DNA of 33,046 nt from a virus. The stretch spans positions 1-33,046 of IMG/VR virus record IMGVR_UViG_3300031772_007669, one strand, 5' to 3'. Every line of letters starts with the position of its first letter. Position 1 is the stretch's first letter. The notes under the pieces were generated by a model. The model ran no database searches. It was not told the DNA's origin and worked only from the letters and a program-made list of their open reading frames with translations. Below are positions 1 to 23,394 of the stretch, piece by piece. The translations under genes were made by a program, and so were the position numbers.

Positions 1-45
1 TAAGTTATTTAATATTTTATACGATTATAAGAAAGGAGAATAGGT

Positions 46-909
46 ATGCACGAAGTAGGTTCATTAACTTTTAAAGCCCCAAGTGGAATGTTAGCTAGAA
101 GGTTTGTTACAATTATTGTAGCTACTGATACTGTTGCTTATACAGCAGCAGCGGCACAACCAGATGCTATTACTTTGGGGGATGAAGATAATTTAGTTAT
201 TAGTGTTGCTCTTTTAACTGATACATCTCGTTCATTTCAATTTGATGCAGCCGGTATAATTGCTTTAGGTGAGTCGGTTGAAGTAGTAGGGGTAGTTGGA
301 AAAGGGACTGTTCAGACAGCTGGCGCAGTAGCTTGTTTATGTAAACTTGCAGCGGTTAATGGTAGTATTTCGGTTGGTTACAATAAAGTAAAAATTATTG
401 TGGCTCCAACTAATGCAGGTGTTGTTGGTGCAGGTGTAACAGCTGTTGAAGCAGGTGATGCTTTTACTCATGTAACAACATTGACAGTTAGTAAAGCAAT
501 GCCAGCTATTGCAGGAGCGGCTAATCAAGGAGTTGGTATTCCAGTATATACCCTTCCTGCAGGAGCAAAAGTAATTAAAACTGCAAACTTTAATTTAGGA
601 CTTACACAAGTTGGCGTTCTGATTGGTGCAGATACACCAGAACTAGGTCTTGGTACAACCATTGGTACCGGTGCACAAGCAACTCTTGGTGCTGTTGGTG
701 CTGGTTGTGAAAATATTCTTCGTGGAGCTTCTACTATTGCTCTAGGTAATTGTACGGGAACTAAATCTCTTGATGGAGCAGTTGTTGACTTATATATTGC
801 AGCTGCTGGTGATCATGTTATTTATGCTAATATAGCAGATGGTTGGGCAGGTGCTGATGCTGGGCCAACTTTAGCTGGTACAATTGTAATTGAATGGGTC
901 TCACTTTAA
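46..909 (+). CDS. Putative capsid decoration/cement protein
   Basis: A 287-residue protein rich in Gly, Ala, Val and Thr, with no signal peptide or membrane segment. It looks all-beta. The N-terminal half has an alternating pattern (AITLGDEDNLVISVALLTD, then GIIALGESVEVVGVVGKGT) of the kind seen in small capsid-cementing proteins. The C-terminal half is a second beta-rich region ending in IVIEWVSL. It lies directly upstream of the major capsid gene, where many siphoviruses keep a decoration or head-fibre gene. The start is supported by AAAGGAG about 8 bases upstream. No catalytic motif is visible. The assignment rests on position and composition, so a scaffold or another head protein remains possible. 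Confidence 0.45.
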   Translation: MHEVGSLTFKAPSGMLARRFVTIIVATDTVAYTAAAAQPDAITLGDEDNLVISVALLTDTSRSFQFDAAGIIALGESVEVVGVVGKGTVQTAGAVACLCKLAAVNGSISVGYNKVKIIVAPTNAGVVGAGVTAVEAGDAFTHVTTLTVSKAMPAIAGAANQGVGIPVYTLPAGAKVIKTANFNLGLTQVGVLIGADTPELGLGTTIGTGAQATLGAVGAGCENILRGASTIALGNCTGTKSLDGAVVDLYIAAAGDHVIYANIADGWAGADAGPTLAGTIVIEWVSL

Positions 910-932
910 GTGAAGAAAGGATTTAAATAACT

Positions 933-1898
933 ATGTCTAAGTATGTTGGTAGCACTAAATTAAGAAGCGATTTGAAAACCCTCATTGAAGCTAGCCCAAT
1001 GGGAACGGTTAATCTTGTTGCTAATAAGATTTTACCTGAAACACCTGTTATTGAAAAAACTGCACAGGTTCCTGAGTTATCTACCGGTGCAGGTATGAAA
1101 TTACTTGATACTAAACGTGCTCCTGATGGTTCATTTAAAAGAGGGGCATGGGTATGGGGTGCGCAAACTTACTATACCTATGAATATGGTTATGAAGAAC
1201 CTGTAGATAATGTTCAAGAATTGTTGAACTCAGATATTTTTTCTGAGGAAACAATATCTGCAATGGTTGCGAGAAATCAATTACTTCTTGCTCGTGAAAA
1301 ACGTGCAGCTGAAGCATTGTTTAATGCTACTACTTTTGCAGCCGGTGCTGATAGTGAAGCAGCAGATGCTGTTTGGAGTATTGCTGGTTCTGATGGTTTT
1401 AAAGATGTAAATGATGCTTATAATAAATTGTTTGCGAAAACTGGTAAGGCAAAAATTCAATGTAGACTTTTGATTAATGAAGTTGTTTTGCGTGAAGCTA
1501 TTCGTTTAACACAAGTAGCTGATGCTGTAAAGTATACTACTCCTATTGAAAATATGGAAGAGAGTATACAAGCAAAATTGCTTGCTACTTTCTTTGGAAT
1601 AGGTGGAGTGGATGTTGCAACATCTTATGCCGATTCTACAGCACTTGGTGTTGATCCAGCTATTTTTAGTCGTTTATTTGCTAATGCTTATGCTTTGTTG
1701 TATTTTCCAACTCCTGCTATTCCTTCTTGGAAGGTACCTGGGATTGGAAGGCAACCTGTTTATACAAAATTTGCTAAAGATTATATTATAGAATCTTATC
1801 CTGAGGAAAGGACTGATTCTACTATTATTCGCGCCAGAGAATTTAGAGGTATTTTCTTAGATACTAAGTATGGTGTTTTAATTACGACTGTTCTGTAA
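933..1898 (+). CDS. Major capsid protein (HK97-fold type)
   Basis: A 321-residue protein that forms the icosahedral shell. The region at about residues 60-130 reads as a capsid P-domain: KRGAWVWGAQTYYTYEYGYEEPVDN, then a long helix with MVARNQLLLAREKRAAEALFN. The pattern of an aromatic-rich strand, a 'PVDN' turn and a spine helix carrying a basic/acidic 'REKRAAE' stretch is typical of phage major capsid proteins. The C-terminus (ESYPEERTDSTIIRAREFRGIFLDTKYGVLITTVL) matches the usual ending, with a receptor-like acidic patch and closing beta strands. The length is normal. AAAGGA lies about 12 bases before the ATG. No separate protease or scaffold gene is visible in the window. Confidence 0.85.
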   Translation: MSKYVGSTKLRSDLKTLIEASPMGTVNLVANKILPETPVIEKTAQVPELSTGAGMKLLDTKRAPDGSFKRGAWVWGAQTYYTYEYGYEEPVDNVQELLNSDIFSEETISAMVARNQLLLAREKRAAEALFNATTFAAGADSEAADAVWSIAGSDGFKDVNDAYNKLFAKTGKAKIQCRLLINEVVLREAIRLTQVADAVKYTTPIENMEESIQAKLLATFFGIGGVDVATSYADSTALGVDPAIFSRLFANAYALLYFPTPAIPSWKVPGIGRQPVYTKFAKDYIIESYPEERTDSTIIRAREFRGIFLDTKYGVLITTVL

Positions 1899-1910
1899 AG
1901 TAAGATAAGA

Positions 1911-1942
1911 TTACTTGTACCTGTAAATACAGGTACAAGTAA
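1911..1942 (+). terminator. Perfect 14-bp hairpin after the capsid gene
   Basis: TTACTTGTACCTGT (1911-1924) pairs perfectly with ACAGGTACAAGTAA (1929-1942) around an AAAT loop. No run of T follows, so it is not a classic intrinsic terminator. A 3' stabiliser or processing hairpin that sets capsid mRNA level relative to the next gene is equally plausible. It abuts the palindromic leader at 1941-1960. Confidence 0.55.
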
Positions 1943-1966
1943 GTTAATTCACCGAGGTGATAAAGT
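1941..1966 (+). repeat. Palindromic leader repeat, copy 1
   Basis: AAGTTAATTCACCGAGGT begins at 1941 and runs directly into the gene at 1967. TTCACC can pair with GGTGA, and GAGGTGA (1954-1960) is itself the Shine-Dalgarno sequence, 6 bases before the ATG. The ribosome binding site is therefore part of a small hairpin. Related copies lie at 4631, 8391 and 12362. Confidence 0.75.
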
Positions 1967-2536
1967 ATGAGAGCAGAATTAATTGGTGCAAAAAAATGTA
2001 TTATGGGTTTAAAAGTTTATAATAAAACTAGAGATAATGAAATAAAAAAGATTATTGCTATTTTTATGACTAAGACAAGAGAGAAGGCTAGAGATTATTT
2101 AATACCCAATTTAACTAATCCTAAAACATATAATCCATATCAAGCATGGAAACAACAACCTTCAACTCCTGGTAGATTAACGTCTAGAACTTGTAAACTT
2201 AAATATATGTTAGGATATGATATACATAAAAATGATTATTTATATGGTTGGGATAAAAAATGGAATAACATTCTTCAAAAAGAAGAGACTATTGGTTTAA
2301 AAGGTCAAATTAGAGAGATGAGAAAATCTACAGAACTTGCTTATATTGGTACATATAGAGTTTTTGTAAAGGAACATTATATTTTAATGAGTACAATGTT
2401 TGGTATGCCTCAAGAAACCTTAAAGTCTTTAGCTATGCGTTTTCAACAGGAATATATGGGCAGACCTATTTTTGCGCCAGTAACTAGTGAGAGTGAACTT
2501 GTGAGTTTATTAAGGAGGTCAGATTGTGTCAGTTGA
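1967..2536 (+). CDS. Putative neck / tail-completion protein (HK97 gp10-like)
   Basis: A basic 189-residue protein between the capsid and tail tube genes. Residues about 60-80 contain PGRLTSRTCKLKYML, which resembles the 'GRLxxRTGxL' segment common in gp10-type head-tail joining or minor tail proteins. The helical N-terminus (residues 20-45) and mixed C-terminus fit a ring-forming neck protein, but no diagnostic residue is seen. The ATG has GAGGTGA 6 bases upstream, inside the palindromic leader. Its last 11 bases overlap the next gene, which suggests translational coupling. Confidence in a head-tail joining role is moderate, and in the exact family low. Confidence 0.5.
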   Translation: MRAELIGAKKCIMGLKVYNKTRDNEIKKIIAIFMTKTREKARDYLIPNLTNPKTYNPYQAWKQQPSTPGRLTSRTCKLKYMLGYDIHKNDYLYGWDKKWNNILQKEETIGLKGQIREMRKSTELAYIGTYRVFVKEHYILMSTMFGMPQETLKSLAMRFQQEYMGRPIFAPVTSESELVSLLRRSDCVS

Positions 2537-3005
2537 AAGACAATTTTTAATAAAATTATTGGCTAAATTAAGAACGTGTACCTATATAACTAGTTCTGCT
2601 AATGTTATAGTAGGAGAAATGTTAGAACATTCTCAATTAGATAATACTATGTTTCCTAGGTTAGAAATTTTAATAGCAAAATCTAAAGAAAATGATTATA
2701 TAGATCAACGTCAAATAGAAAGTGAGTTTAGATTTTCTATAGCGGGTTGGGTAAGAAGAGAAAAATTTAATAATTTAGTAACTGAAGATGATACTTTCTA
2801 TTTGTTGGATTTTGCATATGAAGTAAAAAGATTAGTTAAAAGTTTTAATTCTGATAAAGTAAATGGAATAATTGTTTGTGATGGATTTACACAAGTTTCA
2901 GCCTTTGCTGAGTTATTTTATGAACATGAAATCATAGAAAAACTTGATTCTTTTATACTGATGCATGGAATTGAGTTTACGTTACCCGATACGTATGGAG
3001 GATAA
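2526..3005 (+). CDS. Putative tail terminator protein
   Basis: A 159-residue protein immediately upstream of the tail tube gene, the usual place for the tail terminator that caps the tube. The central segment (MFPRLEILIAKSKENDYIDQRQIESEFRFSIAGWVRRE) shows the pattern of this class: a Pro-anchored strand, a charged loop, then a strand of the type RFSIAGWV. A helix carrying a KRLVKSF stretch follows. The start is GTG, chosen because a strong AAGGAGG (2511-2517) lies about 8 bases upstream and the reading frame overlaps the preceding stop by 11 bases. A head-closure protein is the main alternative. Confidence 0.5.
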   Translation: MSVERQFLIKLLAKLRTCTYITSSANVIVGEMLEHSQLDNTMFPRLEILIAKSKENDYIDQRQIESEFRFSIAGWVRREKFNNLVTEDDTFYLLDFAYEVKRLVKSFNSDKVNGIIVCDGFTQVSAFAELFYEHEIIEKLDSFILMHGIEFTLPDTYGG

Positions 3006-3007
3006 TA

Positions 3008-4633
3008 ATGCCTATTTCAAAGATTTTTCAAACTGCTGCTATGCAATTAGAAGCTGGTAGGAGTGAAACTTTAAAGACTTGTACTTTTCAAGCCGAAGCA
3101 GATGATGATATATTAACAACATCTGTTCAAACTTTTGTAACAGGTGATGCTGGTTATGTTGTTAAAGGTGCTGGTGATCTACCTAATCCAATAGTAGCAT
3201 TAACTCTTTATTATGTAATTGTTATTAATACTACTCATATTAAATTGGCTGTTAATAGGGCACATGCTATTGCTGGTGTTGCTATTAATATTACTACTGA
3301 TGGTGGCGCAGCTAATGTATTTAATGTTACTGGTGTAGCTAGTGAAGGTTGGGGAGATGCTGCTTCCGCTGCTACTTTAGGTGCAAATGATGCTTTTCCT
3401 TATTTATCTTTTTCTAGTAAACTTGCTATTGCTCTTGAAGAAGATGCTAGTGTAACGACTAAAGGATTTAAAGCATTACCAAGAATGATTGGTAAATCTG
3501 TTGATAATCCTTTATCATTTTACGGTCGTTATGCAGGTATGAATAGATTTCATTATTGGATGTTTGGTTTTGAACATGACCCTGGGGGTGTATACTGTTT
3601 TAAAGGAACAGGTTTTGCTACTACTCCTACTGTTGGTGTTGTTTATGTTCAAAGTGGAAAAAATTATACTTATTTAAGAACTGAAACATATCGTTCAGGT
3701 ATGTCATTAGAATATATTTTTGTATTTTCATCTACAGAAGTTGCTCCAACTGTTGCTGGTGAATTGACCAGTGATGGTAAACCTACTTTTACTTATACTT
3801 CTGTTAGTGCTAAAATGTATGAACATACTTATGAAATTGATTCAGGTGCTCGTCATTTCAGAGCTTATACAGCAGCAGAAGATGCAGTTCTTGCTTCAGT
3901 AGAGGTTACCGATAAAAGAAATTTAATGGCAACTATAGGAAAAAGATCTGATGGGTATGATATTAGATATCAAAATTCTATTTGTAAAGGTTTTAATTAT
4001 AAAATCGCAGCAGCAGGTTTAGCTTCTTTTGAAACTAATTTTCTTGCATATTCAGAAGCTAGAGATGATTATTCTTCTTCTGCTTGGACACTTTTAAGTG
4101 GGTTAGGTGATAATCAACTTGTACCTGCTCATTTTGAACACATGGTTTTAATTGGTACAGCTTATGCAATAGGTGCAAATGGTCAATTGAATAGTATGTC
4201 CGAATTGGGTATAAGTAATTTAGACATAGGTGTAGGAATACCTTTACAAAGTATGCAAGATTTTGTTTCAGGTTTATCAATTGCTGAACCTATTATTGAA
4301 AATGCATATGACATTAAAATTAATGGAACAATAAGTAGACATAGTAGTCAAGTATATCAAACTTATAGAGATGCACAAACTCCTATTATTTTAAGGGTCG
4401 CTGCAAATCAGGGTTGGTATATGCAAGAGTGGTTAGTGAAGACAGCTATTCTTAGTGAAGCTGGTATGGATGATTCAGGAGTTGCTCAAGAAGTATTGGC
4501 TATTAACCCGGGATATGTGGAAGGTTCACATCAGTGGACTACGTGGTTGACAGGTGTTACTGAAATTCACAAAGCTCCTATTGTTTTTAGAACTCGTGAT
4601 TATGAATCAGTTAATCAAATGACAGCACAGTAA
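3008..4633 (+). CDS. Major tail tube protein
   Basis: A 541-residue protein at the tail-tube position between the terminator and the assembly chaperone. Residues about 30-112 hold a domain often found in phage structural proteins (TFVTGDAGYVVKG, then LYYVIVINTTHIKLAVNRAHAIAG, then ITTDGGAANVFNVTG), probably beta-rich and displayed on the surface. The rest is beta-rich and ends with GYVEGSHQWTTWL. It is longer than many siphovirus tube proteins, mainly because of the N-terminal insertion. GGAGG lies 6 bases before the ATG. The stop codon is the first triplet of a palindromic leader repeat. The tube role is inferred from size, composition and position. Confidence 0.65.
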   Translation: MPISKIFQTAAMQLEAGRSETLKTCTFQAEADDDILTTSVQTFVTGDAGYVVKGAGDLPNPIVALTLYYVIVINTTHIKLAVNRAHAIAGVAINITTDGGAANVFNVTGVASEGWGDAASAATLGANDAFPYLSFSSKLAIALEEDASVTTKGFKALPRMIGKSVDNPLSFYGRYAGMNRFHYWMFGFEHDPGGVYCFKGTGFATTPTVGVVYVQSGKNYTYLRTETYRSGMSLEYIFVFSSTEVAPTVAGELTSDGKPTFTYTSVSAKMYEHTYEIDSGARHFRAYTAAEDAVLASVEVTDKRNLMATIGKRSDGYDIRYQNSICKGFNYKIAAAGLASFETNFLAYSEARDDYSSSAWTLLSGLGDNQLVPAHFEHMVLIGTAYAIGANGQLNSMSELGISNLDIGVGIPLQSMQDFVSGLSIAEPIIENAYDIKINGTISRHSSQVYQTYRDAQTPIILRVAANQGWYMQEWLVKTAILSEAGMDDSGVAQEVLAINPGYVEGSHQWTTWLTGVTEIHKAPIVFRTRDYESVNQMTAQ

Positions 4634-4650
4634 GTTAATTCACCGAGGTA
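4631..4650 (+). repeat. Palindromic leader repeat, copy 2
   Basis: TAAGTTAATTCACCGAGGTA starts with the stop codon of the tail tube gene. Unlike copies 1 and 4, its GAGGT is too far (about 55 bases) from the next ATG to act as the ribosome binding site. It runs into the large hairpin at 4648-4690, with which AATTCACC (4637-4644) could also pair. Confidence 0.7.
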
Positions 4651-4690
4651 AAAGAATAGGGTGAATTAGAATTCACCCTAATTCTTTTAC
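4648..4690 (+). terminator. 20-bp stem-loop between tail tube and chaperone genes
   Basis: GTAAAAGAATAGGGTGAATT (4648-4667) pairs with 4670-4690 along its whole length, with a two-base loop (AG) and one bulged A at 4680. No T-run follows the stem, although TTTT lies in its 3' arm. It could reduce transcription or protect the abundant tail tube mRNA, so that the chaperone is made at a lower level. Segment 4660-4667 (GGTGAATT) can also pair with upstream AATTCACC at 4637-4644, which gives two mutually exclusive folds. Confidence 0.65.
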
Positions 4691-4704
4691 AAAAAAGGAT
4701 AGAT

Positions 4705-5088
4705 ATGAATTTTAAAATAAATACCATAAGAAAATTTGAGATTGAACATATGTTTGATGATACAGATGTGTGTGTAAAACTTTTTTTTGAAAAAGTAGCA
4801 GTTGAAAATTTAAATTTTGATGAACTTAGAGATAAATTAAATTTGAAAAAAGTAGCAGTTAATAAAGAAGAAGAAGGGCAAGTTAAAGAAGAAGGTTCTT
4901 ATAATGCTTTTCTTTATATGTTAAGAAAATCATTAATTGGTTGGGAAGGTATTGTAGATCAAAATGGAGTTGTTGTTCCTTTTAATGAAAATAATCAAAT
5001 AGCTGTTTTTGAAGAAGTTCAAAAAGAAGTTTCTTTAATACGGAAAATTATAGTTGCCTATTCTGGTATAAATGAAAAAAACTTGTAG
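4705..5088 (+). CDS. Tail assembly chaperone, short form (gpG-like)
   Basis: A 127-residue acidic protein between tail tube and tape measure, the position of lambda gpG and its analogues. These assist tail tube polymerisation around the tape measure and are absent from the virion. N-terminal FKINTIRKFEIEHMFDDTDVCVKLFFEKVAVENLNFDEL is a beta/charged region, followed by a helical C-terminus (EEVQKEVSLIRKIIVAYSG). AAAAAAGGAT lies just upstream of the ATG. The last codons are GAA AAA AAC TTG TAG, placing an A_AAA_AAC slippery site directly before the stop. A fraction of ribosomes should shift to the -1 frame and make the longer form ending at 5444. Confidence 0.75.
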   Translation: MNFKINTIRKFEIEHMFDDTDVCVKLFFEKVAVENLNFDELRDKLNLKKVAVNKEEEGQVKEEGSYNAFLYMLRKSLIGWEGIVDQNGVVVPFNENNQIAVFEEVQKEVSLIRKIIVAYSGINEKNL

Positions 5089-5444
5089 ATTGGTGTGATG
5101 CTTGCATTGATTATGGTTGGTTTCCCCAAAAATGCTTATCATGCCAATTTCAAAAGTCTTGTACTTATTGTTGTTTAATACCTTTATTGGAAATAGATTT
5201 AAAAAATTTAATTATTTATACTAAACTTCCAGAAATATGGAAAATCTTTAATACCGTAATTTCTCTTGGTTCTATAACAGAAAGTGGTTTTTCATTAATG
5301 GGGACACAAGATTTTTTAAGAGATATGCCTATTGATTTGGATGTAACATACGATGAATTTTGGAGAGCAATGTCATATTTTTTATTAAGGTTAAATAGGG
5401 AGGTATTAAAGAATATGGAGACTAGAAGGAGTAAAAATGGCTAG
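4705..5444 (+). CDS. Tail assembly chaperone, -1 frameshift product (gpGT-like)
   Basis: Joining 4705-5082 to the -1 frame from 5082 gives a 246-residue protein: 126 residues of the short form plus 120 from the second frame. The second frame is open from the slippery site to the stop at 5442-5444. It has no credible start of its own, since TTG at 5187 lacks a ribosome binding site. Right after the junction come three cysteine pairs (residues about 131/134, 144/147, 153/156, plus Cys157), spaced like a zinc-binding cluster. A helical T-like domain follows, with a typical end before the tape measure start at 5437. In the lambda model the G part binds tube subunits and the T part binds the tape measure. 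Confidence 0.8.
5076..5148 (+). promoter_or_regulatory. Programmed -1 ribosomal frameshift signal
   Basis: The slippery heptamer A_AAA_AAC is at 5076-5082, correctly phased in the zero frame. After a 6-base spacer that includes the TAG stop, a 12-bp stem forms between 5089-5100 and 5137-5148 (three G-U pairs), with an internal TTGG/CCAA mini-hairpin (5117-5129). Heptamer, 6-base spacing and downstream structure together are the full textbook arrangement for this event in tail chaperone genes. Confidence 0.82.
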
Positions 5445-8388
5445 AGATTTAGTATTACATATATCAATTTATGATAAAGGTAGTGTTGCAGTAAAAGATT
5501 TAACTGCTAAAGTAGAAGGACTTGAGAAAGCTACTTGGAGTCTAGGTAAAACTTTAAATAGAGTATTTGTAGCTTCTACCTTTTTAACGATACTTAATAA
5601 ATTTAAAGAAGGTATTACAAAAACTATAGATGAAGTTACTAAATTCGAAAATACTACTCGTAGAATTGAAGGTGTTGCAGGTATTTCAGGTAAATCTTTA
5701 TCTAAATTAAGTCAACAGTCTATTGATCTTTCTAATGCTACAGAGTTTATGGCGACAGAAGTTCAATCAGCTACATTAGCTTTAGTTAAATTAGGTATTC
5801 CTGCTGTGGCAGCATCTAAAATGTTACCAATTTTAGCAGATATAACAACGGCTACTGGTTTAGAAATGGGTAGAGTTTCTGTTATTGTTTTAGATATAAT
5901 GCGTCAATTTAGTTTAGATTTTTTAAATATGGCAGAAGTACAAAGAACTGCTAATGTTTTATTTCAAGTAGAAGCACAGACTTCAATAGAATCTTTTGAA
6001 GAAATTGCTGACTCTATGAAATATGTTGCAACTGTTGCTAACACAATGGGTTATTCTCTTGAAGAAACTTCTTCTATTTTAGGTATTCTTGCCAATAGAG
6101 GTATTAAAGGTACTCTTGCTGGTAATGCAATGAAGAATATGTTTTTAAATATTTTATCTGCAACTGGTAAGACTAAACAAGTCTTAATTGGTATGAATAC
6201 GGAAACAATGTCTTTTGCAGATATTTTAGCTGAATTAAAGGTTAGAGGTGTAGATGTAACTGGGTTTCTAGAACTATTTAAAAAGAGAGCAGTTGTTACA
6301 TCTTTAGCAGTAGCAGCTAGCAGTAAAGAAGTTAATGAATTTACTAAAGAATTGGAAGAGCAAACACTTAAAGTTTCAGATGTAGCTGCCGTTATTAGGT
6401 ATAGTTGGATTAATCAATTAAAAATATTGGAAAATACTTTTGTTAATTTGGGTGCGACATGGCAATTAATAATGGATAATTCTTTTACTGTTAATCCTGT
6501 AACTCAATTAATAGAATCTTTTATCAGTTTACAAAAATGGATGCTAGAGAATAAGGAATTGATAATTGTTTTTTCAAATAATATAGCAAAATCTTTAAAA
6601 AATGTTGCTGACGTTATTGGTTTTTTAGTTAGTAAAGGTGTTATAAATTTTAGATTTTTAAGTGCAAGTATAAAAATTTTAATTGCTAATTCTATTCTTT
6701 TTAATAAAAATTTTGTTGCTGGTAATAAAGCAATGCTTAAGTTTAATGAAACAGTAAAGGCAACTGGAAAAGGTACGGCTTTAGGTAGTCTTTTAGTTAA
6801 TTGGAATATGTATGCTTTAGCTCTTTTTGGTACGATAGAGATTCTTAATGTGGCATTTGATAAATGGAATGCACGATTAGATAAACAAACTGCAACTGTT
6901 GCAGATACTTCATTAGAAGGTATGAAAAGTAAATTAGCAGCATTAAAAGAATATCAAAGTTTAAAGTATAAACCTGAAGAAAAACAACAATTCATTGGTG
7001 AATTTGGTGATGTATCAAAAAATGCTCAAAAGGCTAGCGCTGAAATAGTAACAATAGCTGAAAAATATAATTTGCCATTAAAGTTTTTTGAAAATATAGA
7101 TTTAATTAAAATAATTCCAGGTTTGGAAAAGAGTATAAAAGAAGTTGAACAAATTATAAAAGATAGTAATGATAGAATAGCGCAAACTAAGTTAGATAAA
7201 GAAAATACTTTAGCTTTACAACTAAAGCAAGCAGCAATAGAGGAAGCAAGAAAAAGAGCACAAGCATGGATAGATGCATACATAGATTATTTAAATAATA
7301 GAAGTGAAGGTATTAAAGATGCTTATGCTAGAATTTTAGCTGGTATTCATCCTATTGAACCTAGACTTTTAAGTGAAGGAGAAAAAACTCAGGGGATAGG
7401 TAAAGAGACTTTAAAAAGTTTAAAAACTAAAGAAGTAGTTGAAGGTAGTAATTTAACTGATATAAAAGATGTAGGTTTAAAAATATCTGATCTACCAAAA
7501 AATATACAAAAACAATTAGAAATGGTTGTTGCAGTTAAATTGGTTTTAGAGGAAAAAGAAATAGAAAAATTAAAGAAGGAAGTAGAAAAATTAAGGGAAA
7601 AACTTGAAGGAAAAAAGGAAAAGGAAAAAGAAGCTAAAGGTAAAGTTGTTGTTGCTCATAAAAAATCACAAGATACTAATAAAGAAATATTAGATATTAC
7701 TTATAAAGATATTTTAGACCATCAAGATAAAGTTGTAGCAGCTTATGAATTAACTGATCAAATAATTACTGGTTTTGATGATCTTAGACACGATAAAATA
7801 ATGAATAATATTACTAAAGAAGAAAATGCTTTAAATAAAAAGTATAGTAAACAGATGGATTTAGCCAAAAATAGTTCTGAAAGACAGAAATTAATACAAA
7901 TGAAATATGATGCAGATATGAGGAAATTGCAAAAGAGAAAAGAAAAAGAAGAGGTAGAATATAAAAATAAAGAAAAAGCTTGGGCTATAATTGATGTATT
8001 GATAAAAGGAGCAGTAGCATTTATTGCTCAATTACAATCTGGGCCGGCAGGATGGGTTTTAGCAGCTTTAACTGCTGCTGCTACAACAGCATCCGCTATA
8101 TTTATTGCAAGTAAAAAATATAGAGAAGGCGGAATGGTTAGAGGAGCAGGTAACGGTACTTCAGATTCAGTCCCAATGTGGGGTAGTAATGGCGAATATA
8201 TGGTAAAAAAAGATATTGTTGATTCTTTAGGTGGTGAGTATGGTGTTAAATCAATGATTGAAGATAGATTAGGAAAAAGTTTTACGAGTAGTAGAAATGT
8301 TAATCTTTATATTGATACGTTGATAGGTTCTCCTGAATATGAAAGAGACTTATTTATAAGATTAAAAAAGGAAGAAAAGAGATGGTAA
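5437..8388 (+). CDS. Tail tape measure protein
   Basis: A 983-residue protein that sets tail length and helps DNA exit. Residues about 1-330 form the conserved N-terminal region of TMP proteins (TRRIEGVAGISGKSLSKLSQQ, then MATEVQSATLALVKLGIPA, then RGIKGTLAGNAMKNMFLNIL). The middle includes hydrophobic stretches around residues 395-475 and long charged coiled coils (about 700-850, with KEKEKEAKGK). Another hydrophobic segment lies at about 850-890 (AIIDVLIKGAVAF, then AGWVLAALTAAATTASAIFIA). The C-terminus has the family motif GGMVRGAGNGTSDSVPMWGSNGEYMV. AGAAGGAG precedes the ATG, which overlaps the chaperone stop by 8 bases. At roughly 0.15 nm per residue it predicts a tail near 147 nm. Confidence 0.92.
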   Translation: MARDLVLHISIYDKGSVAVKDLTAKVEGLEKATWSLGKTLNRVFVASTFLTILNKFKEGITKTIDEVTKFENTTRRIEGVAGISGKSLSKLSQQSIDLSNATEFMATEVQSATLALVKLGIPAVAASKMLPILADITTATGLEMGRVSVIVLDIMRQFSLDFLNMAEVQRTANVLFQVEAQTSIESFEEIADSMKYVATVANTMGYSLEETSSILGILANRGIKGTLAGNAMKNMFLNILSATGKTKQVLIGMNTETMSFADILAELKVRGVDVTGFLELFKKRAVVTSLAVAASSKEVNEFTKELEEQTLKVSDVAAVIRYSWINQLKILENTFVNLGATWQLIMDNSFTVNPVTQLIESFISLQKWMLENKELIIVFSNNIAKSLKNVADVIGFLVSKGVINFRFLSASIKILIANSILFNKNFVAGNKAMLKFNETVKATGKGTALGSLLVNWNMYALALFGTIEILNVAFDKWNARLDKQTATVADTSLEGMKSKLAALKEYQSLKYKPEEKQQFIGEFGDVSKNAQKASAEIVTIAEKYNLPLKFFENIDLIKIIPGLEKSIKEVEQIIKDSNDRIAQTKLDKENTLALQLKQAAIEEARKRAQAWIDAYIDYLNNRSEGIKDAYARILAGIHPIEPRLLSEGEKTQGIGKETLKSLKTKEVVEGSNLTDIKDVGLKISDLPKNIQKQLEMVVAVKLVLEEKEIEKLKKEVEKLREKLEGKKEKEKEAKGKVVVAHKKSQDTNKEILDITYKDILDHQDKVVAAYELTDQIITGFDDLRHDKIMNNITKEENALNKKYSKQMDLAKNSSERQKLIQMKYDADMRKLQKRKEKEEVEYKNKEKAWAIIDVLIKGAVAFIAQLQSGPAGWVLAALTAAATTASAIFIASKKYREGGMVRGAGNGTSDSVPMWGSNGEYMVKKDIVDSLGGEYGVKSMIEDRLGKSFTSSRNVNLYIDTLIGSPEYERDLFIRLKKEEKRW

Positions 8389-8390
8389 CG

Positions 8391-8415
8391 TAAATCAATT
8401 CACCTAGGTGAAAAG
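8391..8415 (+). repeat. Palindromic leader repeat, copy 3 (variant)
   Basis: This is a diverged copy. TTCACCTAGGTGAA at 8399-8412 is a perfect 14-base palindrome, whereas copies 1, 2 and 4 have GA at the centre. It lies just after the tape measure stop and about 20 bases before the next ATG, too far to be the ribosome binding site. The conserved symmetry argues that structure or protein binding matters, not only ribosome recognition. Confidence 0.7.
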
Positions 8416-8432
8416 CAAGGAATAAGATAATT

Positions 8433-8846
8433 ATGGTAGACGTAGTTTTTAATCAAAGTGGAAATGTATGTGGTATTGTTGGAGAAGTGGTATATGCTAC
8501 AGATTTCTGGTTTGAAAAGAATGGTCAAGTTCAATATATAACAGGAGATAGTGCTATAGTAGTTTATGACTACTCAGCACCTGAAATGTTATTTGCTGAA
8601 TTAGTTGTAAAGAATGTATCTTATGCAGACTTTTTACTTTTGCAAACATGGATTAGAGAAAAAGCTTTATACAGATTGAATACTTTTACTATTACTTGTA
8701 ATCCTAATACTTATATAAATTTGGGTTTAGGTAGAGGTGTAAATATAACTAATGCTCATTATAATAAATCTGATACAGAGGGAATATTTAAAATTACTCC
8801 ACCTGGGATATATGAAATTAAATTTCCATTTGTAAGAACTGTATAG
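8433..8846 (+). CDS. Distal tail / tail-tip component, family unknown
   Basis: A 137-residue protein directly after the tape measure, where siphoviruses encode distal tail or tail-tip adaptors. The sequence looks mostly beta: MVDVVFNQSGNVCGIVGEVVYATDFWFE, then IVVYDYSAPEMLFAELVVKNVSYADFLLLQTWI. It ends in a Pro/Tyr-rich strand (GIYEIKFPFVRTV). I recognise no family motif. The gene is close to its neighbours, with the next ribosome binding site overlapping its stop codon. The tail-tip role is inferred from position only. Confidence 0.5.
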   Translation: MVDVVFNQSGNVCGIVGEVVYATDFWFEKNGQVQYITGDSAIVVYDYSAPEMLFAELVVKNVSYADFLLLQTWIREKALYRLNTFTITCNPNTYINLGLGRGVNITNAHYNKSDTEGIFKITPPGIYEIKFPFVRTV

Positions 8847-8860
8847 GAGGATTGAAAACT

Positions 8861-11800
8861 ATGTTTGAAACTAGTACACAAGTAACAATGGGAGTTGTTT
8901 TATATCCAAACATAAGTGATGATTGGAAAATTGATTCTCCTTTTAATGAATTGTTAGAAGAAGCAGAAATTGCTTATGTTTTCAGTCCTTCAATTGATAC
9001 AATATCATCTGAGTTGCATTTAATAAAAAGTATTCTTAACAATGTATCTAAGATTTCTAACAGTATTGATTTTATATCTAAAATAGATGTGGAAAAAAGT
9101 GAAGAACAAATAAGTAATGGTATAGGTGGTATTAGTAGATTAAAAGATTTTTCTTTTACCTTATTATTAAGTATTTCTACCTTAGACTTAATAAAATTTT
9201 ATGGAAGAAAAATAGAAGTTGTTCTTTGGGAAGGAAATGAAATATTAAATGTTACTTCAGGGCAAATTGTTTTTAAAGGTGAAGTTTATAAAATAAATAG
9301 AGATAAGGAAGAAATAATTTTTTCTGTGAGAGAATTATTAAGTAGTTTAAAGACAGAGGTAAAAGGTGCAAGTGTTGTGGATATAGAAGGAGAGATTACA
9401 TATGAACCTATACTTTTAGGTTACAATGAAAATATGAGTCTTTTACCTTTAAAAAAAATAAAAGATCAATATGGTGCAACTGTTTTATCTTTTAGTGAAA
9501 GTGATAAATATATTATTAAAGATATTTATATTAAACAATCTGGTGTAAATGATAAACCTATTTATAATAAAGTATTAAGTGACGCTACAATAAAAGATAA
9601 AATTGTATTCTTTGGGGAGAAGGATAGAATTTTTGCATACACAGCTGAGAGTATTACTTTAGATCAATTTCAAATTGATATACATGATTATTATATTATG
9701 GGATTTTCAAGTGTAGTTCCTTATGTTTTTGCTCCTGATGATTATATAGAAAGACTTAGTCCTCCTCCTATTATAAACACTTCTTGTAAATGGTTATATT
9801 TAAGAAGTGAAGTTATATCTGATAAAACATACTATTTATTTGCGACTGTTTGGGATGCTTTTTATGGTGAGACTAGATTAAACATGGAAACATATTTTGA
9901 GGAAAATAATAATATACCTTTTTGTGTAAATCATAATTTATTAGATAATTTTGTAGCTGATAGTTTTATAGATTATTCAGAAGCTAAAATAAAAAAGGAG
10001 ATTGACGCTGTTAGATTTAGTACGGGTTTAGAGTATGATGCTAACGTGGAACCTTCAGAAATAGCTAATGAGTGGAATCAGTATAAAGTAATGACTTCTA
10101 TTCCTGAGGGAGTTGTAATAAAAATTGATGATGAAGAAATGTTGGTTATTAATACTCAAAAAGTTTATCCATTATTAAATGAAAATGGAGATAACCCAAA
10201 AGTACAAAGAATAACTGTAGAACGTGGTTGGAATAAAACTGTTCCTATAACACATTTAGACAATGCTATAATAAAGTTAAAAACAGACACAAACAGTTCT
10301 ATTATGTATGAATATAATACAGAATTAAAAAATATAACTACTATTAATTCTTATGGAGAAGGTGCACAAACTAATTGGAGAACACAAAATATAAGTAGTT
10401 TTTTAGATGGAACAGGAGATTTAATTGTTTCATCATGGGGAAAAGTATATCAACATTATTTGGGTTTATTTTTTGATATGCCAGATTTAAAGGGTGATTT
10501 AAAAATAGCTAGATTAGTCGGAAGTGCTAAATCAACTATTAATCAATTTCCTTCTTCTCTTGTAAATGAAATTCCACAGTATATATCTGCTTATATCTCT
10601 TTGTCTGGTTTAGAAGGTTGGTTTGATGAAACCAATAAAAGTGATAAGTGGAAATCTTCAAGAGTGTATTTTGGTAGAAATGAAGTACAAAATACTACAA
10701 CTTATCAGATTGGAAATTCATCATTAACTGCTGTTGTTAATTCAGGTATTATTACTAAACAAGAAGGTAATTATAGTATTATATTAAGTGGAGCTTGGAA
10801 GATAGGAGTATTTAAGGATTGTATTGGAATTATACCACCATTTAAATATAATGGTAAAAATATTTATTATGATTTTGCTAATGGTTATGATCAAACATAC
10901 GGTTTATTGAGTTTAAACGATTTAAAAGAAGGAATTTATATTTCTTTTAGAGGTTCAAATTATTATAAATTAAGATCAACTTTTGCTTTAAGTAGACCAA
11001 AACTAAAGTTGGAAATATCTGCATTAGTTAATGAATTAGATTTTTATGCAGATGTAATACCTAAAACTGTTTTAGATGCAGAAAATATATTAGATGAGAT
11101 AGCAACTGGAGATAATCCTAAATTTTTTGTGACTAAGGATTTAGTAAACTTTCCGTATGGTATAGTATTAACTATATCTAGTGATGATACAAAAATTATA
11201 CAAAGTGCCTATGTAAATTTAACAGATGGAAGTCTTTATAATATTAAAGAGTTAGTTGGTACAGCTGTAGGAACTTTAATGTATAGTCCTTTTGACAATA
11301 AATTTAATGGTACTAGTAATTTTATGTATAAAGTTTATAAGTCTGAATTTAAATACCTTAGTTGGAATACATTAACTGGTGTAGAAACAATTGTTTCTAG
11401 TAGTCATCCTCCAACTTATTTAGAAAGAGCAGAATATACTTATTATAAATATGAGAATTTTATATTTGTAGCTAGTGGTAAAAAGGTTTATATTTTAAAT
11501 ACAGCTATTAATTTAGTTAATAATCCTGTTCAAGTAATTAAAAATTTATTGATAGAGTATGCCCCTAAATTAACATTGGATGAAACTTCTTTTACTCAAG
11601 CAACTTTAGCACGAAAACTGTGGCACATGTATAAAATTATTATAAAACCTTTTGGGCTTATTAAATTAATAGATGAAATAGCTAAACAACATTGTTTACT
11701 TTTAGTAGAAAAATTAAATGGTGATATTGCTATTGTTCCATTAAGTGTTCCTGGAAGTTATGCTGCAGAATTGACAAATTCTGAATTTGTATATAATAAT

Positions 11801-12364
11801 GGAGAGATAGCTTATAGGGAAAGTTTTAGCGAATTAGATTATTTAATAACTAAAATGGATGTTAAATATGATGTTGACGCAAATGATGAAGAAAATTTTA
11901 AAGGTCTTATTAAATCAGATGATTTAGCACTTCAAAATTTATTTGATTTAACTAAAGAATTTACCGATAATGAAATATTAGTTAATTTAGAATTAGATAC
12001 TGTATATGAAAAAGCAACTGCCAGGCTTTCAGCAGGTGTTAAAATGCATTATCATTTTATGCCTAATAGAAGTATAGATTTTAATTCAGTTAAACCTTCA
12101 GAGATATGTAGAGATTTAGGTGAATGGGTAAAATGTACTTGCACAAAGATTGGGTATGTAACTGGTAATTTATATTTAATACTGGGTGTTGGTATAACTT
12201 TACCTTTTAGAGAAGAAAATTTTATAGTTGAATTAAATACCTATGAGTGGTTAGGTAGTGCAAATGTAGACTTGGCAATACAAGAAGTACCGGAATCATC
12301 TTTAGCAGATTATCAGGAAACTCATACTGCAGATATTGATATACAGGAGGTTTCAAGTGTGTAA
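8861..12364 (+). CDS. Large tail hub / tip protein (J-like position)
   Basis: A 1167-residue protein. The ATG at 8861 is preferred over an in-frame TTG at 8852, because AGGAGG (8845-8850) is 10 bases from the ATG and only 1 from the TTG. The N-terminal part (residues about 20-160) has strand-rich segments such as LKDFSFTLLLSISTLDLIKFYGRKIEVVLWEG, resembling hub domains that surround the tail channel. Near residues 905-960, ARKLWHMYKIIIKPFGLIKLIDEIAKQHCLLLVEKLNGDIAIVPL resembles the 'helix, then domain sensing the tip' segment of phage tail proteins. The C-terminus is beta-rich. It probably forms the hub linking tube, distal ring and fibre. No lytic or protease domain is visible. Confidence 0.6.
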   Translation: MFETSTQVTMGVVLYPNISDDWKIDSPFNELLEEAEIAYVFSPSIDTISSELHLIKSILNNVSKISNSIDFISKIDVEKSEEQISNGIGGISRLKDFSFTLLLSISTLDLIKFYGRKIEVVLWEGNEILNVTSGQIVFKGEVYKINRDKEEIIFSVRELLSSLKTEVKGASVVDIEGEITYEPILLGYNENMSLLPLKKIKDQYGATVLSFSESDKYIIKDIYIKQSGVNDKPIYNKVLSDATIKDKIVFFGEKDRIFAYTAESITLDQFQIDIHDYYIMGFSSVVPYVFAPDDYIERLSPPPIINTSCKWLYLRSEVISDKTYYLFATVWDAFYGETRLNMETYFEENNNIPFCVNHNLLDNFVADSFIDYSEAKIKKEIDAVRFSTGLEYDANVEPSEIANEWNQYKVMTSIPEGVVIKIDDEEMLVINTQKVYPLLNENGDNPKVQRITVERGWNKTVPITHLDNAIIKLKTDTNSSIMYEYNTELKNITTINSYGEGAQTNWRTQNISSFLDGTGDLIVSSWGKVYQHYLGLFFDMPDLKGDLKIARLVGSAKSTINQFPSSLVNEIPQYISAYISLSGLEGWFDETNKSDKWKSSRVYFGRNEVQNTTTYQIGNSSLTAVVNSGIITKQEGNYSIILSGAWKIGVFKDCIGIIPPFKYNGKNIYYDFANGYDQTYGLLSLNDLKEGIYISFRGSNYYKLRSTFALSRPKLKLEISALVNELDFYADVIPKTVLDAENILDEIATGDNPKFFVTKDLVNFPYGIVLTISSDDTKIIQSAYVNLTDGSLYNIKELVGTAVGTLMYSPFDNKFNGTSNFMYKVYKSEFKYLSWNTLTGVETIVSSSHPPTYLERAEYTYYKYENFIFVASGKKVYILNTAINLVNNPVQVIKNLLIEYAPKLTLDETSFTQATLARKLWHMYKIIIKPFGLIKLIDEIAKQHCLLLVEKLNGDIAIVPLSVPGSYAAELTNSEFVYNNGEIAYRESFSELDYLITKMDVKYDVDANDEENFKGLIKSDDLALQNLFDLTKEFTDNEILVNLELDTVYEKATARLSAGVKMHYHFMPNRSIDFNSVKPSEICRDLGEWVKCTCTKIGYVTGNLYLILGVGITLPFREENFIVELNTYEWLGSANVDLAIQEVPESSLADYQETHTADIDIQEVSSV

Positions 12365-12387
12365 GTTAATTCACCGAGGTGAAAAGT
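12362..12387 (+). repeat. Palindromic leader repeat, copy 4
   Basis: TAAGTTAATTCACCGAGGTG starts with the stop codon of the hub gene. GAGGTGA (12376-12382) is the Shine-Dalgarno sequence for the ATG at 12388, 5 bases away. It matches copy 1 almost base for base, and TTCACCGAGGTGAA can form a hairpin that masks the ribosome binding site. Confidence 0.75.
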
Positions 12388-15048
12388 ATGGCAGAAAATA
12401 GAGAAATTTATTTTTATAATGATATATTGAATAACTTAATGCTTTTATTAAAAGTTAATGAAAGAGGTTTAATAGATGATTTAAATTATAATATAGGTTA
12501 TAAAGATGAGATTAATGATTTTCATATTTGTGCTCAACAAAAATATTATGATACATCTGAATCTGAATGGGTATATCCAACAAATTCTTTTGGTGAAATA
12601 CATATGTATGGTGATGTTATTTTTCAAACAGGATTTGGTTTACAAGATCAATTTTTAGTTGTACCTATTCCTATTAGTGAGGATGGAATTTTAGCGTTAG
12701 ATGAAAGTTTTACTGCTATTTCTTTAGTCGGTTGTTTAAATGAATTAATGAATACTATTGGTTCTTATTGGACTAAGGATGGTCATAATCTTTATCCTAC
12801 AGACTTAATGAATTGCATAGGCATGGGCACAGTCACCCCTCTCCTGAACGTAGGCACCGCAGCGGGTAATTTTTATATTGATGCAGGAACTACAGGTTTA
12901 CATATTAAGAGTAGACAGACAACATTTAATGCTACTGCATTTTTAATTTTAGAAGGATTTGGTGAAGACGCAAATGGGCATGGTGCTGGTCATAATGGAT
13001 CAAGATTTATTATGTGTGGAAGTAATGGTATTGCTGATGACAAAATGATGCAAATAGCATCGGGAGGTTCTATTACTCATTTTGATTCATTAAATGATAA
13101 TATGTCAATAAAAAAAGAAATAATGAGTTTTGATTGGGATGGAACAATAACTTTTAATCAATATGGTGTAGGTATTATCCACAGTTCAGCAGCTGGACTA
13201 CTTTCTTCCAGTGCGATAGTTGCAACAGATATTACCAATAACACGATAACCAATACGCAACTTGCAAATCTTGGTACTGTGGGCACGATACCTAAATTTG
13301 CCGCGACAGGATTGGCTAATAGTGTTCTAGTTGAAGGGTCTAGTGGGCATGTTGGGGTTAATTGTGTTCCTAATGCCAATTGGAGCACAGATGGAAATGT
13401 AAAATCAGTAGTAGAACTTACGTCAAGCGTTGATGATGCCTATAGTATGGCTTTGTCTGGGAGTATAGTAGATTTAGGTATTTATTTTCATTGCCACAAG
13501 AGAAACGGGGGAGATAATATATATAGAAACTTGTTTCCTGGCGCAAGTACTTGGTATCCTATGTACATTGGGACATATGCGAGTTCGTTAGATTTTGCTG
13601 TAGGCCCGGCTGGAACTAATGATATATGGAATAAAGGAGCAAATACAACGAATAGAATGATAATTAATACATTGGGGACACATATCAATATAAATGTAGG
13701 AGATTTTGATACAAATATTTATGGAACCGCAGCAATTCCAAACATTTGTGTAGACGCGGGAATGAATTGCATAGGCATGGGCACAGTCACCCCTCTCCTG
13801 AACGTAGGCACCGCAGCGGGTGATTTTTATACTGATGCAGGAACTACAGGTTTACATATTAAAAGTATACAAACAACATTTTTAATTTTAGAAGGATTTG
13901 GTGAAGGTGCAAATGGTCATTGTAATGGTCATAATGGATCAAGATTTATTATGTGTGGAAGTAATGGTGATGTTAATAGTAAAATGATGCAAATGGTATC
14001 TGGGGGGTGTTTTACTCATTTTGATTCATTAAATGATGATATGTCAATAAGAAAAGAAATAATGAGTTTTGATTGGGGTGGAACAATAGCTTTTAATCAA
14101 TATGGTGTAGGTATTATCCATAGTTCAGCAGTTGGACTACTTTCTTCCAGTGCGATAGTTGCAACAGATATTACCAATAACACGATAACCAATACGCAAC
14201 TTGCAAATCTTGGTACTCTTGGAACAATACCTAAATTTGCCGCGACAGGATTGGTCAATTCCATTCTAATAGAAGTTGCAGGGGGTATTGAAATACCCAC
14301 AGCTAAATATTTTGGACTTGGTGCAGCTAAAGGAAGAATGGTATTTACAGATACAACAATTGATACTATTACTTTTTCTGATTGTCACGTTTACTATGGG
14401 ACATCTGCTTATATTGATTGTATCTATGGTGATTTTCATTCAATTTATTCTGGGGTTGATGCTTGCTTTACTGGTGCTTTTAACGCAGGAGTACCAGGTT
14501 TTGGATCGGTAACCAATAATGATGTAGTCATTTTTTCTAATAGTTTAGAAAGAATGAGAGTTTTTAAGGGCGGAAATATCTCTTTTTCCACCGACGGAGT
14601 GGTTACAAGTTATGGTTTACATAGTGATGTGACGTTGACACATGTACATGATGTAGGACTAAAACTAAAAGCGCCAGCTGCGAATACTGCTCAGTTCCAG
14701 ATTGAACGATATGAAGATGATTCCTATTTATTTTTCGGGAATTTAGCAACAAATGTATGGAGAATAGTAGCTTCTTATAATGTAAACGGATCGTATCAGC
14801 CAATTGCATTTTATACGTCTGCTTCACGAAGGTTGGAATTGTCTGTTGCGGGTAATATCGTTTTAGGTACTCAGGCGGCGCTTGCCACAAATGCTACTGA
14901 TGGATTTACTTATATACCAACATGCGCAGGTACTCCAACAGGAGTTCCTACTGCATACACCGGTAAAGTTGCCATGATCTATGATATGATAAATAATGAA
15001 TTTTATATTTATAATGGGGCATGGAAATCCGGTGCTGCTTTCAGCTAA
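12388..15048 (+). CDS. Tail fibre / receptor-binding protein with duplicated module
   Basis: An 886-residue protein. An in-frame GTG at 12379 lies within the Shine-Dalgarno sequence, so the ATG at 12388 is the start. Residues about 1-140 may attach to the tail. Next come two copies of a roughly 165-residue module starting at about residues 140 and 458: MNCIGMGTVTPLLNVGTAAG, then GLHIKS, then HNGSRFIMCGSNG, and ending ATDITNNTITNTQLANLGT. The linker between the copies and the C-terminal part are unique. The C-terminus (TDGFTYIPTCAGTPTGVPTAYTGKVAMIYD, then EFYIYNGAWKSGAAF) resembles the common closing segment of phage fibres. The Gly/Asn/Thr richness fits a trimeric fibre. The host receptor is unknown. 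Confidence 0.7.
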   Translation: MAENREIYFYNDILNNLMLLLKVNERGLIDDLNYNIGYKDEINDFHICAQQKYYDTSESEWVYPTNSFGEIHMYGDVIFQTGFGLQDQFLVVPIPISEDGILALDESFTAISLVGCLNELMNTIGSYWTKDGHNLYPTDLMNCIGMGTVTPLLNVGTAAGNFYIDAGTTGLHIKSRQTTFNATAFLILEGFGEDANGHGAGHNGSRFIMCGSNGIADDKMMQIASGGSITHFDSLNDNMSIKKEIMSFDWDGTITFNQYGVGIIHSSAAGLLSSSAIVATDITNNTITNTQLANLGTVGTIPKFAATGLANSVLVEGSSGHVGVNCVPNANWSTDGNVKSVVELTSSVDDAYSMALSGSIVDLGIYFHCHKRNGGDNIYRNLFPGASTWYPMYIGTYASSLDFAVGPAGTNDIWNKGANTTNRMIINTLGTHININVGDFDTNIYGTAAIPNICVDAGMNCIGMGTVTPLLNVGTAAGDFYTDAGTTGLHIKSIQTTFLILEGFGEGANGHCNGHNGSRFIMCGSNGDVNSKMMQMVSGGCFTHFDSLNDDMSIRKEIMSFDWGGTIAFNQYGVGIIHSSAVGLLSSSAIVATDITNNTITNTQLANLGTLGTIPKFAATGLVNSILIEVAGGIEIPTAKYFGLGAAKGRMVFTDTTIDTITFSDCHVYYGTSAYIDCIYGDFHSIYSGVDACFTGAFNAGVPGFGSVTNNDVVIFSNSLERMRVFKGGNISFSTDGVVTSYGLHSDVTLTHVHDVGLKLKAPAANTAQFQIERYEDDSYLFFGNLATNVWRIVASYNVNGSYQPIAFYTSASRRLELSVAGNIVLGTQAALATNATDGFTYIPTCAGTPTGVPTAYTGKVAMIYDMINNEFYIYNGAWKSGAAFS
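12807..13278 (+). repeat. Fibre internal duplication, copy A
   Basis: The first copy of the module inside the fibre gene. Its first 61 bases (12807-12867) equal 13761-13821 exactly, and its last 85 bases (13194-13278) equal 14133-14217. The bases between are similar but changed. The offsets of 954 and 939 bases are multiples of three, so recombination between copies would keep the frame. Confidence 0.88.
13761..14217 (+). repeat. Fibre internal duplication, copy B
   Basis: The second copy of the module. It is 15 bases shorter than copy A, losing five codons around the residues NATAF. It carries scattered substitutions in the core while both edges are identical to copy A. The GC-rich edge (GGCATGGGCACAGTCACC) stands out from the AT-rich gene body. 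Confidence 0.88.
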
Positions 15049-15105
15049 ATAAAAAAACATAAGTATATTTTAACTTTAATGTAAATTAATCTTAAGGAGA
15101 TCCAT

Positions 15106-15324
15106 ATGCCTTTCAATGAACTCAGGCCTAAATTACCTTCGCCCGATCCTACGCCTCTCAGCCAAAATCAAACTTTAACCATTTCACAGACTATCGCCCT
15201 GCTCTCTGCTAAATTCGACGAAACTAAAAACCTCGCTCTCGAAGCCATTGCACAACTCGAATCCCAACTCGTATCTTTAAGCAACTCTATAAAAAAGGAT
15301 CAATCAAATGCCAACCCCGGATAA
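15106..15324 (+). CDS. Small helical/coiled-coil protein, function unknown
   Basis: A 72-residue protein. The Pro-rich start (LRPKLPSPDPTPLSQNQ) is followed by a long amphipathic helix (residues about 24-66, LLSAKFDETKNLALEAIAQLESQLVSL), probably a coiled coil. AAGGAGATCC lies just before the ATG. The stop overlaps the spike start by 17 bases, so the two are likely co-translated. A chaperone or attachment peptide for the spike is possible but not shown. This is the first gene after the switch to C-rich composition. Confidence 0.6.
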   Translation: MPFNELRPKLPSPDPTPLSQNQTLTISQTIALLSAKFDETKNLALEAIAQLESQLVSLSNSIKKDQSNANPG

Positions 15325-17134: not shown

Positions 17135-17147
17135 AAGGAAAAATCCT

Positions 17148-18050
17148 ATGCTCACCGACATCTCGTCAATTAAAAATATCTTTCAACTTGGCCAAGCATG
17201 GATTCCCATGGTTATGAACGAGAGAATTACCCTTAACCTGTCTCAGTTCTCTCAACTCCAAAATCGTCCCATCATCCCTGAATCAGTCGTTTGCAAAAGA
17301 ATAACTTCCTACCTGCCTGTTATCGATCCATCTTCACCTCTACCACTCACCAATGTAAATACCTTTGATCTCGCTTACCAAAAAATAATCTGGAATACCG
17401 TAACCGTCTCAGATGATGCAATCCTTACCACTATCTACCTCGAAAACGTCGATTATATCATAGACTACGTTTATGGCACGATCAAAAGAACTACGTCTTC
17501 CGCTATCCCCAGCGCCTCTTCAGTCTATGTCTGGTACCAATTTTTCGACGTTATGTCCGAAGACCTCGACTATACCATTGACTATGCAAACGGCCAAATC
17601 AAACGCAAAGGCTCCTCTATCCCAAATGACTCCACCGTTTACATCGACTACTCGTATTCACCCGTCCTCATGACCGATGAACTCATTCTCGAAATAATCA
17701 AAGAAGCCGAAAATTATCTTCTCACAAAACTCAAATCACCATACACCCTTTCCTCGAGCGATGAACCGCTAAAATCAGCGGCAACCAACTTCTCTCTTTA
17801 CCTGCTTTGTCTTGCACAATCAGCGAAAGAATTATCCTCTTCCGGAGAAAATTCTTCTTCTATTTCTCGCGAATGGATTTCACTATCCTCTAAATATCTT
17901 GAACTCGCTAAAACTATGTTTATGCCATATTCAAACGTCAATGCCCTTCTCGACGTCCCTTCGGGCGGCCTTATTCAAAACCGTTTCTCTTCTTCAAGGA
18001 CGAAATCTTCATCCTCCCCTACGGTTTCACCCTTCACCAGAAAGTATTAA
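17148..18050 (+). CDS. Putative head-tail connector with duplicated N-terminal domain
   Basis: A 300-residue protein just upstream of the terminase genes. Residues about 85-130 and 137-175 carry two copies of a short beta unit: YIIDYVYGTIKR, then VYVWYQF, and YTIDYANGQIKR, then VYIDYSY. This is a common phage structural repeat. From about residue 180 a helical part (TDELILEIIKEAENYLLTKL, later LAKTMF) resembles gp6-like connector proteins that form a ring under the portal. A Ser-rich basic tail ends in SPFTRKY. AAAAGGA precedes the ATG. The connector role is inferred from helix pattern and position. A minor head protein is the alternative. Confidence 0.45.
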   Translation: MLTDISSIKNIFQLGQAWIPMVMNERITLNLSQFSQLQNRPIIPESVVCKRITSYLPVIDPSSPLPLTNVNTFDLAYQKIIWNTVTVSDDAILTTIYLENVDYIIDYVYGTIKRTTSSAIPSASSVYVWYQFFDVMSEDLDYTIDYANGQIKRKGSSIPNDSTVYIDYSYSPVLMTDELILEIIKEAENYLLTKLKSPYTLSSSDEPLKSAATNFSLYLLCLAQSAKELSSSGENSSSISREWISLSSKYLELAKTMFMPYSNVNALLDVPSGGLIQNRFSSSRTKSSSSPTVSPFTRKY

Positions 18051-18058
18051 TTTACTCC

Positions 18059-21243: not shown

Positions 21244-21260
21244 TATCGGAGTAATTAAAT

Positions 21261-22079: not shown

Positions 22080-22120
22080 TGCTTCCTTTTTATCGTCTTT
22101 AACTTATATTTATAGATAAG

Positions 22121-22196: not shown

Positions 22197-22219
22197 CCTT
22201 AACAATTAAATGAGCACTT

Positions 22220-23354: not shown

Positions 23355-23384
23355 TTGACTTTCCTTATGCTTTAATAGTATATT
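23355..23384 (+). promoter_or_regulatory. Sigma70-type promoter for the accessory operon
   Basis: TTGACT (23355-23360) and TATATT (23379-23384) are separated by 18 bases in an AT-rich zone just after the non-coding stretch and about 60 bases before the ATG at 23442. This is the best promoter seen in the window. Confidence 0.6.
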
Positions 23385-23394
23385 TAATTATACA

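Follow-up and report, generated by a model that had tools for sequence, protein, structure and literature searches.

How are two overlapping, coding-like reading frames expressed when they sit between a candidate major tail protein gene and a tape measure gene? The question is raised by a locus in a viral sequence of 33,046 nucleotides (IMG/VR record IMGVR_UViG_3300031772_007669, analysed over its whole length and hereafter called the window). The gene directly downstream of the two frames (5437..8388, plus strand, 983 aa) is assigned with certainty to a tape measure protein on the strength of its matches to PhageMin_Tail (1.2e-25) and phrog_28 (1.2e-31), and the gene directly upstream (3008..4633, plus strand, 541 aa) probably encodes the major tail protein, an identification made by position, its library matches being weak. 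A terminator scan placed a hairpin with a T-rich tail at 4657..4680 on the plus strand, between the major tail protein candidate and the chaperone genes, and returned two terminator-like sites in all (one hairpin read on both strands) against 0.3 expected. The locus thus lies where the original prediction had put it, at the tail-chaperone position of the genome, as defined by a neighbour recognized by position on one side and by Pfam and PHROGs on the other.

This position invites comparison with the G and T genes of lambda. The two lambda products, gpG and gpGT, arise by a −1 frameshift and are needed in a low ratio of 30:1 (Levin 1993, Xu 2004, as reviewed in PMC5009743), and G-T frameshifting is widely conserved (PMC5009743). 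As in lambda, the window carries a gene ahead of the tape measure gene, a predicted −1 shift late in the first open reading frame (ORF), and the potential for a short and a long form. The heptamers differ, the lambda slip site being G_GGA_AAG and that of the window A_AAA_AAC with a predicted 12-bp hairpin. Gene position, heptamer, frame logic and coding character support the lambda-type reading that had been proposed, and we conclude that the product of the window locus is very probably the tail assembly chaperone of a long-tailed phage, made in two forms by a lambda G/GT-type programmed −1 frameshift.

Slip site, reading frames and downstream structure

The zero-frame ORF (4705..5088, plus strand) encodes a putative gpG-like tail assembly chaperone of 127 aa, carries the motif LIGWEGIVDQNGVVVPFNENN, begins with an ATG preceded by AGGA and matches a chaperone family. 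In the phase set by the ATG at 4705, its 3′ end reads GAA AAA AAC TTG TAG. The heptamer A_AAA_AAC therefore stands in phase at 5076..5082 on the plus strand, a single TTG codon separates it from the TAG stop (5086..5088, plus strand), and the 6-nt spacer at 5083-5088 has the stop inside it; the heptamer, its phase and the spacer had all been called correctly beforehand. The same heptamer is found in L018, BcepGomr, Loki and other phages discussed below. Only four in-phase copies of A_AAA_AAC or G_GGA_AAC occur in the window's 23 main genes, so that chance placement of one of them in the final codons of the gene that precedes the tape measure gene is unlikely.

The −1 frame (5082..5444, plus strand) begins with the codon CTT at 5082, stays open for 120 codons and stops at 5442-5444; its last 8 nt also belong to the tape measure gene, which begins at 5437. 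When 5082-5441 was shuffled 20,000 times with dinucleotides preserved, the frame was never left open, and over this interval the two remaining forward frames contain 13 and 9 stops. When codon usage was scored with the other left-half genes of the window as the training set, the −1 frame reached −3.75 per codon, within the range of the called genes (−3.4 to −3.8) and above that of the other five frames (−4.19 to −4.87). Just 6 nt before the slip site the frame is closed by a TGA, and the earliest start-like codon, a TTG at 5187, lies 35 codons in, past all of the cysteines, with no Shine-Dalgarno sequence found ahead of it. The frame is accordingly hardly reachable except by a shift, which bears out the earlier description of a second frame open from the slip site to 5444 and lacking a start of its own.

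These properties also bear on the reading of the second frame as a gene in its own right, translated from an internal start or by re-initiation and never fused to the first. Many annotators do list two distinct genes at such loci, and the −1 frame of L018 has an ATG soon after the stop of its first ORF. In the window, however, the frame lacks stops and has the character of coding sequence from the slip site onward, and its first start-like codon comes after the cysteines and without a Shine-Dalgarno sequence, leaving a separate gene very improbable. The frameshift reading instead predicts products of 127 aa and 246 aa (126 + 120), the latter a gpGT-like fusion spanning 4705..5444 on the plus strand, as deduced from both frames and the slip site. 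Both lengths are those originally proposed, and the predicted fusion, reading ..INEKN-LVDWC.., contains the junction of NEKN to LVDWC given then.

Downstream of the heptamer, a putative stimulatory stem-loop (5089..5148, plus strand; minimum free energy −17.8 kcal/mol) comprises a 12-bp stem and a small inner stem. Folding of the RNA from 5083 to 5150 returned exactly the 12 pairs that had been drawn by eye, 5089-5100/5137-5148, three of them G-U; the stem can be extended to 14 bp (5087-5100/5137-5150) through A5087-U5150 and G5088-U5149, which would bring it into the stop codon. The stable predicted structure begins about 6 nt after the heptamer, within the canonical distance of about 5-8 nt for a stimulated −1 signal. 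Folding-energy z-scores were −2.9 for 5083-5150 and −3.4 for 5076-5160. A helix of at least 12 bp starting 3-9 nt past the heptamer arose in 10 of 3000 dinucleotide shuffles, and an energy at or below that of the window stem was reached by 19 of 3000 shuffles that preserved dinucleotides and by 7 of 3000 that exchanged synonymous codons. As 21 of the 406 60-nt windows in 1-15000 (about 5%) have a z-score equal or better, the stem is uncommon, less striking by itself than the other elements, and suggestive rather than proven. A search of Rfam found no known RNA family. Among 17 relatives from the chaperone family, the region after the heptamer varies in predicted structure, with z between −4.0 and +1.4 (about five at −2 or below). 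Of the "complete" frameshift signal that was first described, the heptamer, its phase, the spacer and a predicted stem are therefore present, while completeness is in part an extrapolation, given the variable structure in the wider family.

From this arrangement we infer how the locus would work, including the slippage itself, its efficiency, the part played by the hairpin and the binding partners. The majority of ribosomes would terminate at the TAG at 5086-5088 and release the 127-residue gpG-like protein. A minority, with AAA paired to tRNA-Lys and AAC to tRNA-Asn, would shift backwards by one base at A_AAA_AAC, aided by the hairpin that begins about 6 nt downstream, and would then read the −1 frame to 5444 to yield the 246-residue gpGT-like fusion. 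On the lambda model, the first domain, common to both forms, would coat the tape measure protein, and the extension would recruit the major tail protein during tube assembly. A_AAA_AAC has been reported for HCTV-2, and in E. coli it is far less shifty than A_AAA_AAG (PMC5009743). Such poor shifting would suit a lambda-like low ratio, if behaviour in E. coli is a guide to that in the window's host.

Distant relatives and conservation of the slip site

Whether the slip site is maintained in other phages could be asked only through distant relatives. Single-sequence searches of viral contigs with either chaperone half, the major capsid protein, the portal or the tape measure protein gave no match, nor did tblastn searches of phages with the terminase, the major capsid protein and the fused chaperone, nor scans of genome contigs with the major capsid protein and with a chaperone alignment. 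With direct searches by chaperone, capsid and terminase all empty, the window phage is an orphan. A tape-measure profile proved more productive: a six-sequence alignment contained no usable stretch, and the three-sequence version used in its place retrieved 80 viral loci, among them L018, a metagenomic phage (IMGVR_UViG_3300035698_009438). Further chaperone scans of viral contigs returned the L018 contig and no other.

The L018 gene before the tape measure gene aligns with the window chaperone at 37% identity over 38 aa (3e-7, pairwise), and its first domain is assigned to phrog_313, a family of tail assembly chaperones (1.3e-9). Its 3′ end reads GAA AAA AAC TAA, with the same heptamer and frame relation as in the window, and its −1 frame extends for 120 codons from the heptamer, contains two CxxC pairs and ends in ..NG over the tape measure start. 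The two loci therefore share A_AAA_AAC, nearly the same lengths (128 + 120 residues in L018, 126 + 120 in the window), the paired cysteines and the ..NG end, but differ in overall sequence (24% identity) and in the genes upstream. By these comparisons L018 is the nearest syntenic relative. Vibrio pYD38-B and 2E1, which match L018 very weakly (E 0.9 and 7), have no canonical heptamer at the gene end.

The wider family was reached through the first domain. The 127-aa window protein alone matches phrog_313 weakly (hmmscan, E 0.013); against a five-sequence profile it scored 5.8e-6, and against a 17-sequence family profile 1.7e-5, ahead of all 263 decoys, which supports placing the domain in the GWE-motif tail-chaperone family phrog_313. 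One family member, BcepGomr (L095), carries AAAAAAC immediately before the chaperone stop, and a search with its fused protein yielded 370 phage records. Fourteen family phages were fetched irrespective of slip site, a set that includes close kin (PSA20 and YuA do not differ at this locus) and so does not amount to 14 independent events; in all 14 the first ORF ends with A_AAA_AAC or G_GGA_AAC, followed by an open −1 frame of at least 99 codons that begins with Leu, and the stop mostly lies directly after the heptamer. In half of the family relatives it is G_GGA_AAC that occupies the equivalent codon position. A joined CDS is annotated in two records, those of RcRudolph and Loki, and the publication on Loki identifies AAAAAAC as the motif beside the chaperone stop (PMC5313236). 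Loss of the slip site and stem from relatives had been named at the outset as an observation that would count against a frameshift; of the two, the slip site is kept in L018 and in 14/14 family phages.

This conservation also weighs on two explanations that turn on the run of seven A residues at 5075-5081, which the heptamer overlaps. One holds that the run was misassembled or missequenced, the real genome having one more A and encoding, without need of a frameshift, one uninterrupted protein of about 247 aa. Homopolymers are typical sites of indels, the junction falls in this one, and the window sequence comes from a single viral contig record. Yet the independent L018 contig breaks frame at the same heptamer, the frame is broken likewise in family phages sequenced in many laboratories, half of them with G_GGA_AAC, and a proper stop at or just past the heptamer recurs throughout the family. 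The other would have RNA polymerase, rather than the ribosome, slip on the A run to produce the fusion, as polymerase can on long A runs, of which seven residues is the low end. G_GGA_AAC, by contrast, is a classic ribosomal heptamer without a long homopolymer, and the window has a predicted hairpin at ribosomal distance. Because half of the family uses G_GGA_AAC, we regard an error in the homopolymer and polymerase slippage as both very unlikely, and retain ribosomal slippage as the preferred reading.

Survey of the family also turned up extensions that have escaped annotation. In Roseobacter phage RDJL Phi 2 (L009, 3575-3958) an unannotated 125-codon −1 extension follows A_AAA_AAC ahead of the tape measure gene and matches Phage_TAC_18 (1.1e-9), the public record giving the first ORF only. 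In Pseudomonas phage YuA (L110, 908-1240) the −1 chaperone extension after G_GGA_AAC carries no gene annotation, and the record places a high-activity −24/−12 promoter feature over its 3′ part.

A probable divergent chaperone pair with a cysteine-rich extension

Among the closest counterparts is the pairing of phrog_313 with phrog_3817/Phage_TAC_18, which includes BcepGomr, Septimatrevirus, Yuavirus, Loki and others. The window shares with the phrog_313 family the first-domain GW motif GWEx(V/I)xDxxGxx(V/I)xF, a heptamer of the form X_XXA_AAC, and a −1 extension that begins with Leu and is about 100-140 aa long. It departs from the pair in having a Cys-rich extension with no detectable similarity to Phage_TAC_18, in placing the stop one codon past the heptamer, and in lacking a small additional gene that often precedes the tape measure gene in family members. 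Acinetobacter phage vB_AbaS_Loki (gp12/gp13) resembles the window in the exact AAAAAAC at the chaperone stop and in an annotated terminator between the major tail protein and chaperone genes, but is very distant in sequence and has a second domain of the BcepGomr type.

The 120-aa extension occupies the gpT-like position and opens with the Cys-rich stretch WCDAC..KCLSC..SCTYCC, its layout and Cys pairs being as in L018. It gave no significant family match in Pfam or PHROGs, Phage_TAC_18/phrog_3817 included. Homology to Phage_TAC_18, considered as a candidate, is unsupported: the library searches were empty, and in a profile test against Phage_TAC_18/phrog_3817 the extension ranked 53 of 267. 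Its likeness to the second domain of L018 is marginal by global alignment (6/2000 shuffles), and local alignment of the two second domains found no significant similarity; the L018 domain itself has a sub-threshold match to DUF1799 (0.013), a lead only. With family matches absent and the resemblance to L018 marginal, the window's second domain is classed as a T domain on the grounds of position and coupling rather than of tested homology. A search of solved structures gave no match, and AlphaFold2 models were of low confidence (mean pLDDT 43 and 47), too poor for fold comparison.

It is tempting to speculate that the extension represents a new Cys-rich type of T domain, possibly binding zinc through its CxxC..CxxC pairs and so far seen elsewhere only in L018, although we hold this idea to be doubtful. 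If it were true, the family would have swapped its tube-recruiting half and kept the slippery heptamer at the joint. The window is otherwise an ordinary and well-supported new example, if a very divergent one, of a known type of frameshift; it extends a well-known case of recoding to a very divergent phage and leaves understanding of the mechanism unchanged. Its practical use follows from the slip site and frame logic having outlasted a protein similarity that has nearly vanished, which makes the frameshift a usable marker when chaperones are annotated in orphan phages.

Other features of the contig

The composition of the contig breaks abruptly near 15050. Between 1-15050 and 15100-33046 the GC content passes from about 0.25-0.39 to 0.39-0.47 and the GC skew from about +0.25 to −0.3, though the main genes lie on the plus strand on both sides; C occupies 4% of third codon positions to the left and 36% to the right. 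The head and tail genes lie left of the break, and the portal, RecE and RecT genes right of it. The break could reflect a replication-strand effect, or the contig could be chimeric or mosaic.

Two families of short repeats were also noted. A 30-nt element, AGTAAGTTAATTCACCGAGGTGAAAAG.., occurs in four copies (1938-1967, 4629-4658, 8389-8418 and 12360-12389), each at or just past the end of a gene and close to where the next one begins. At its core is the inverted repeat TTCACC-GA-GGTGAA, which includes a Shine-Dalgarno-like GAGGTG, and the element is possibly one of translational control. A second leader repeat, GACCTTCCGGCGGGATC..GGGGTGA, is present at 23395-23465 and 24115-24185, before two neighbouring genes of the right half. 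Finally, the gene at 12379-15048, which codes for a candidate tail fibre of 889 aa, contains an internal duplication (12807-13237/13761-14176) in which 121 nt match at 96% and 300 nt at 91%.
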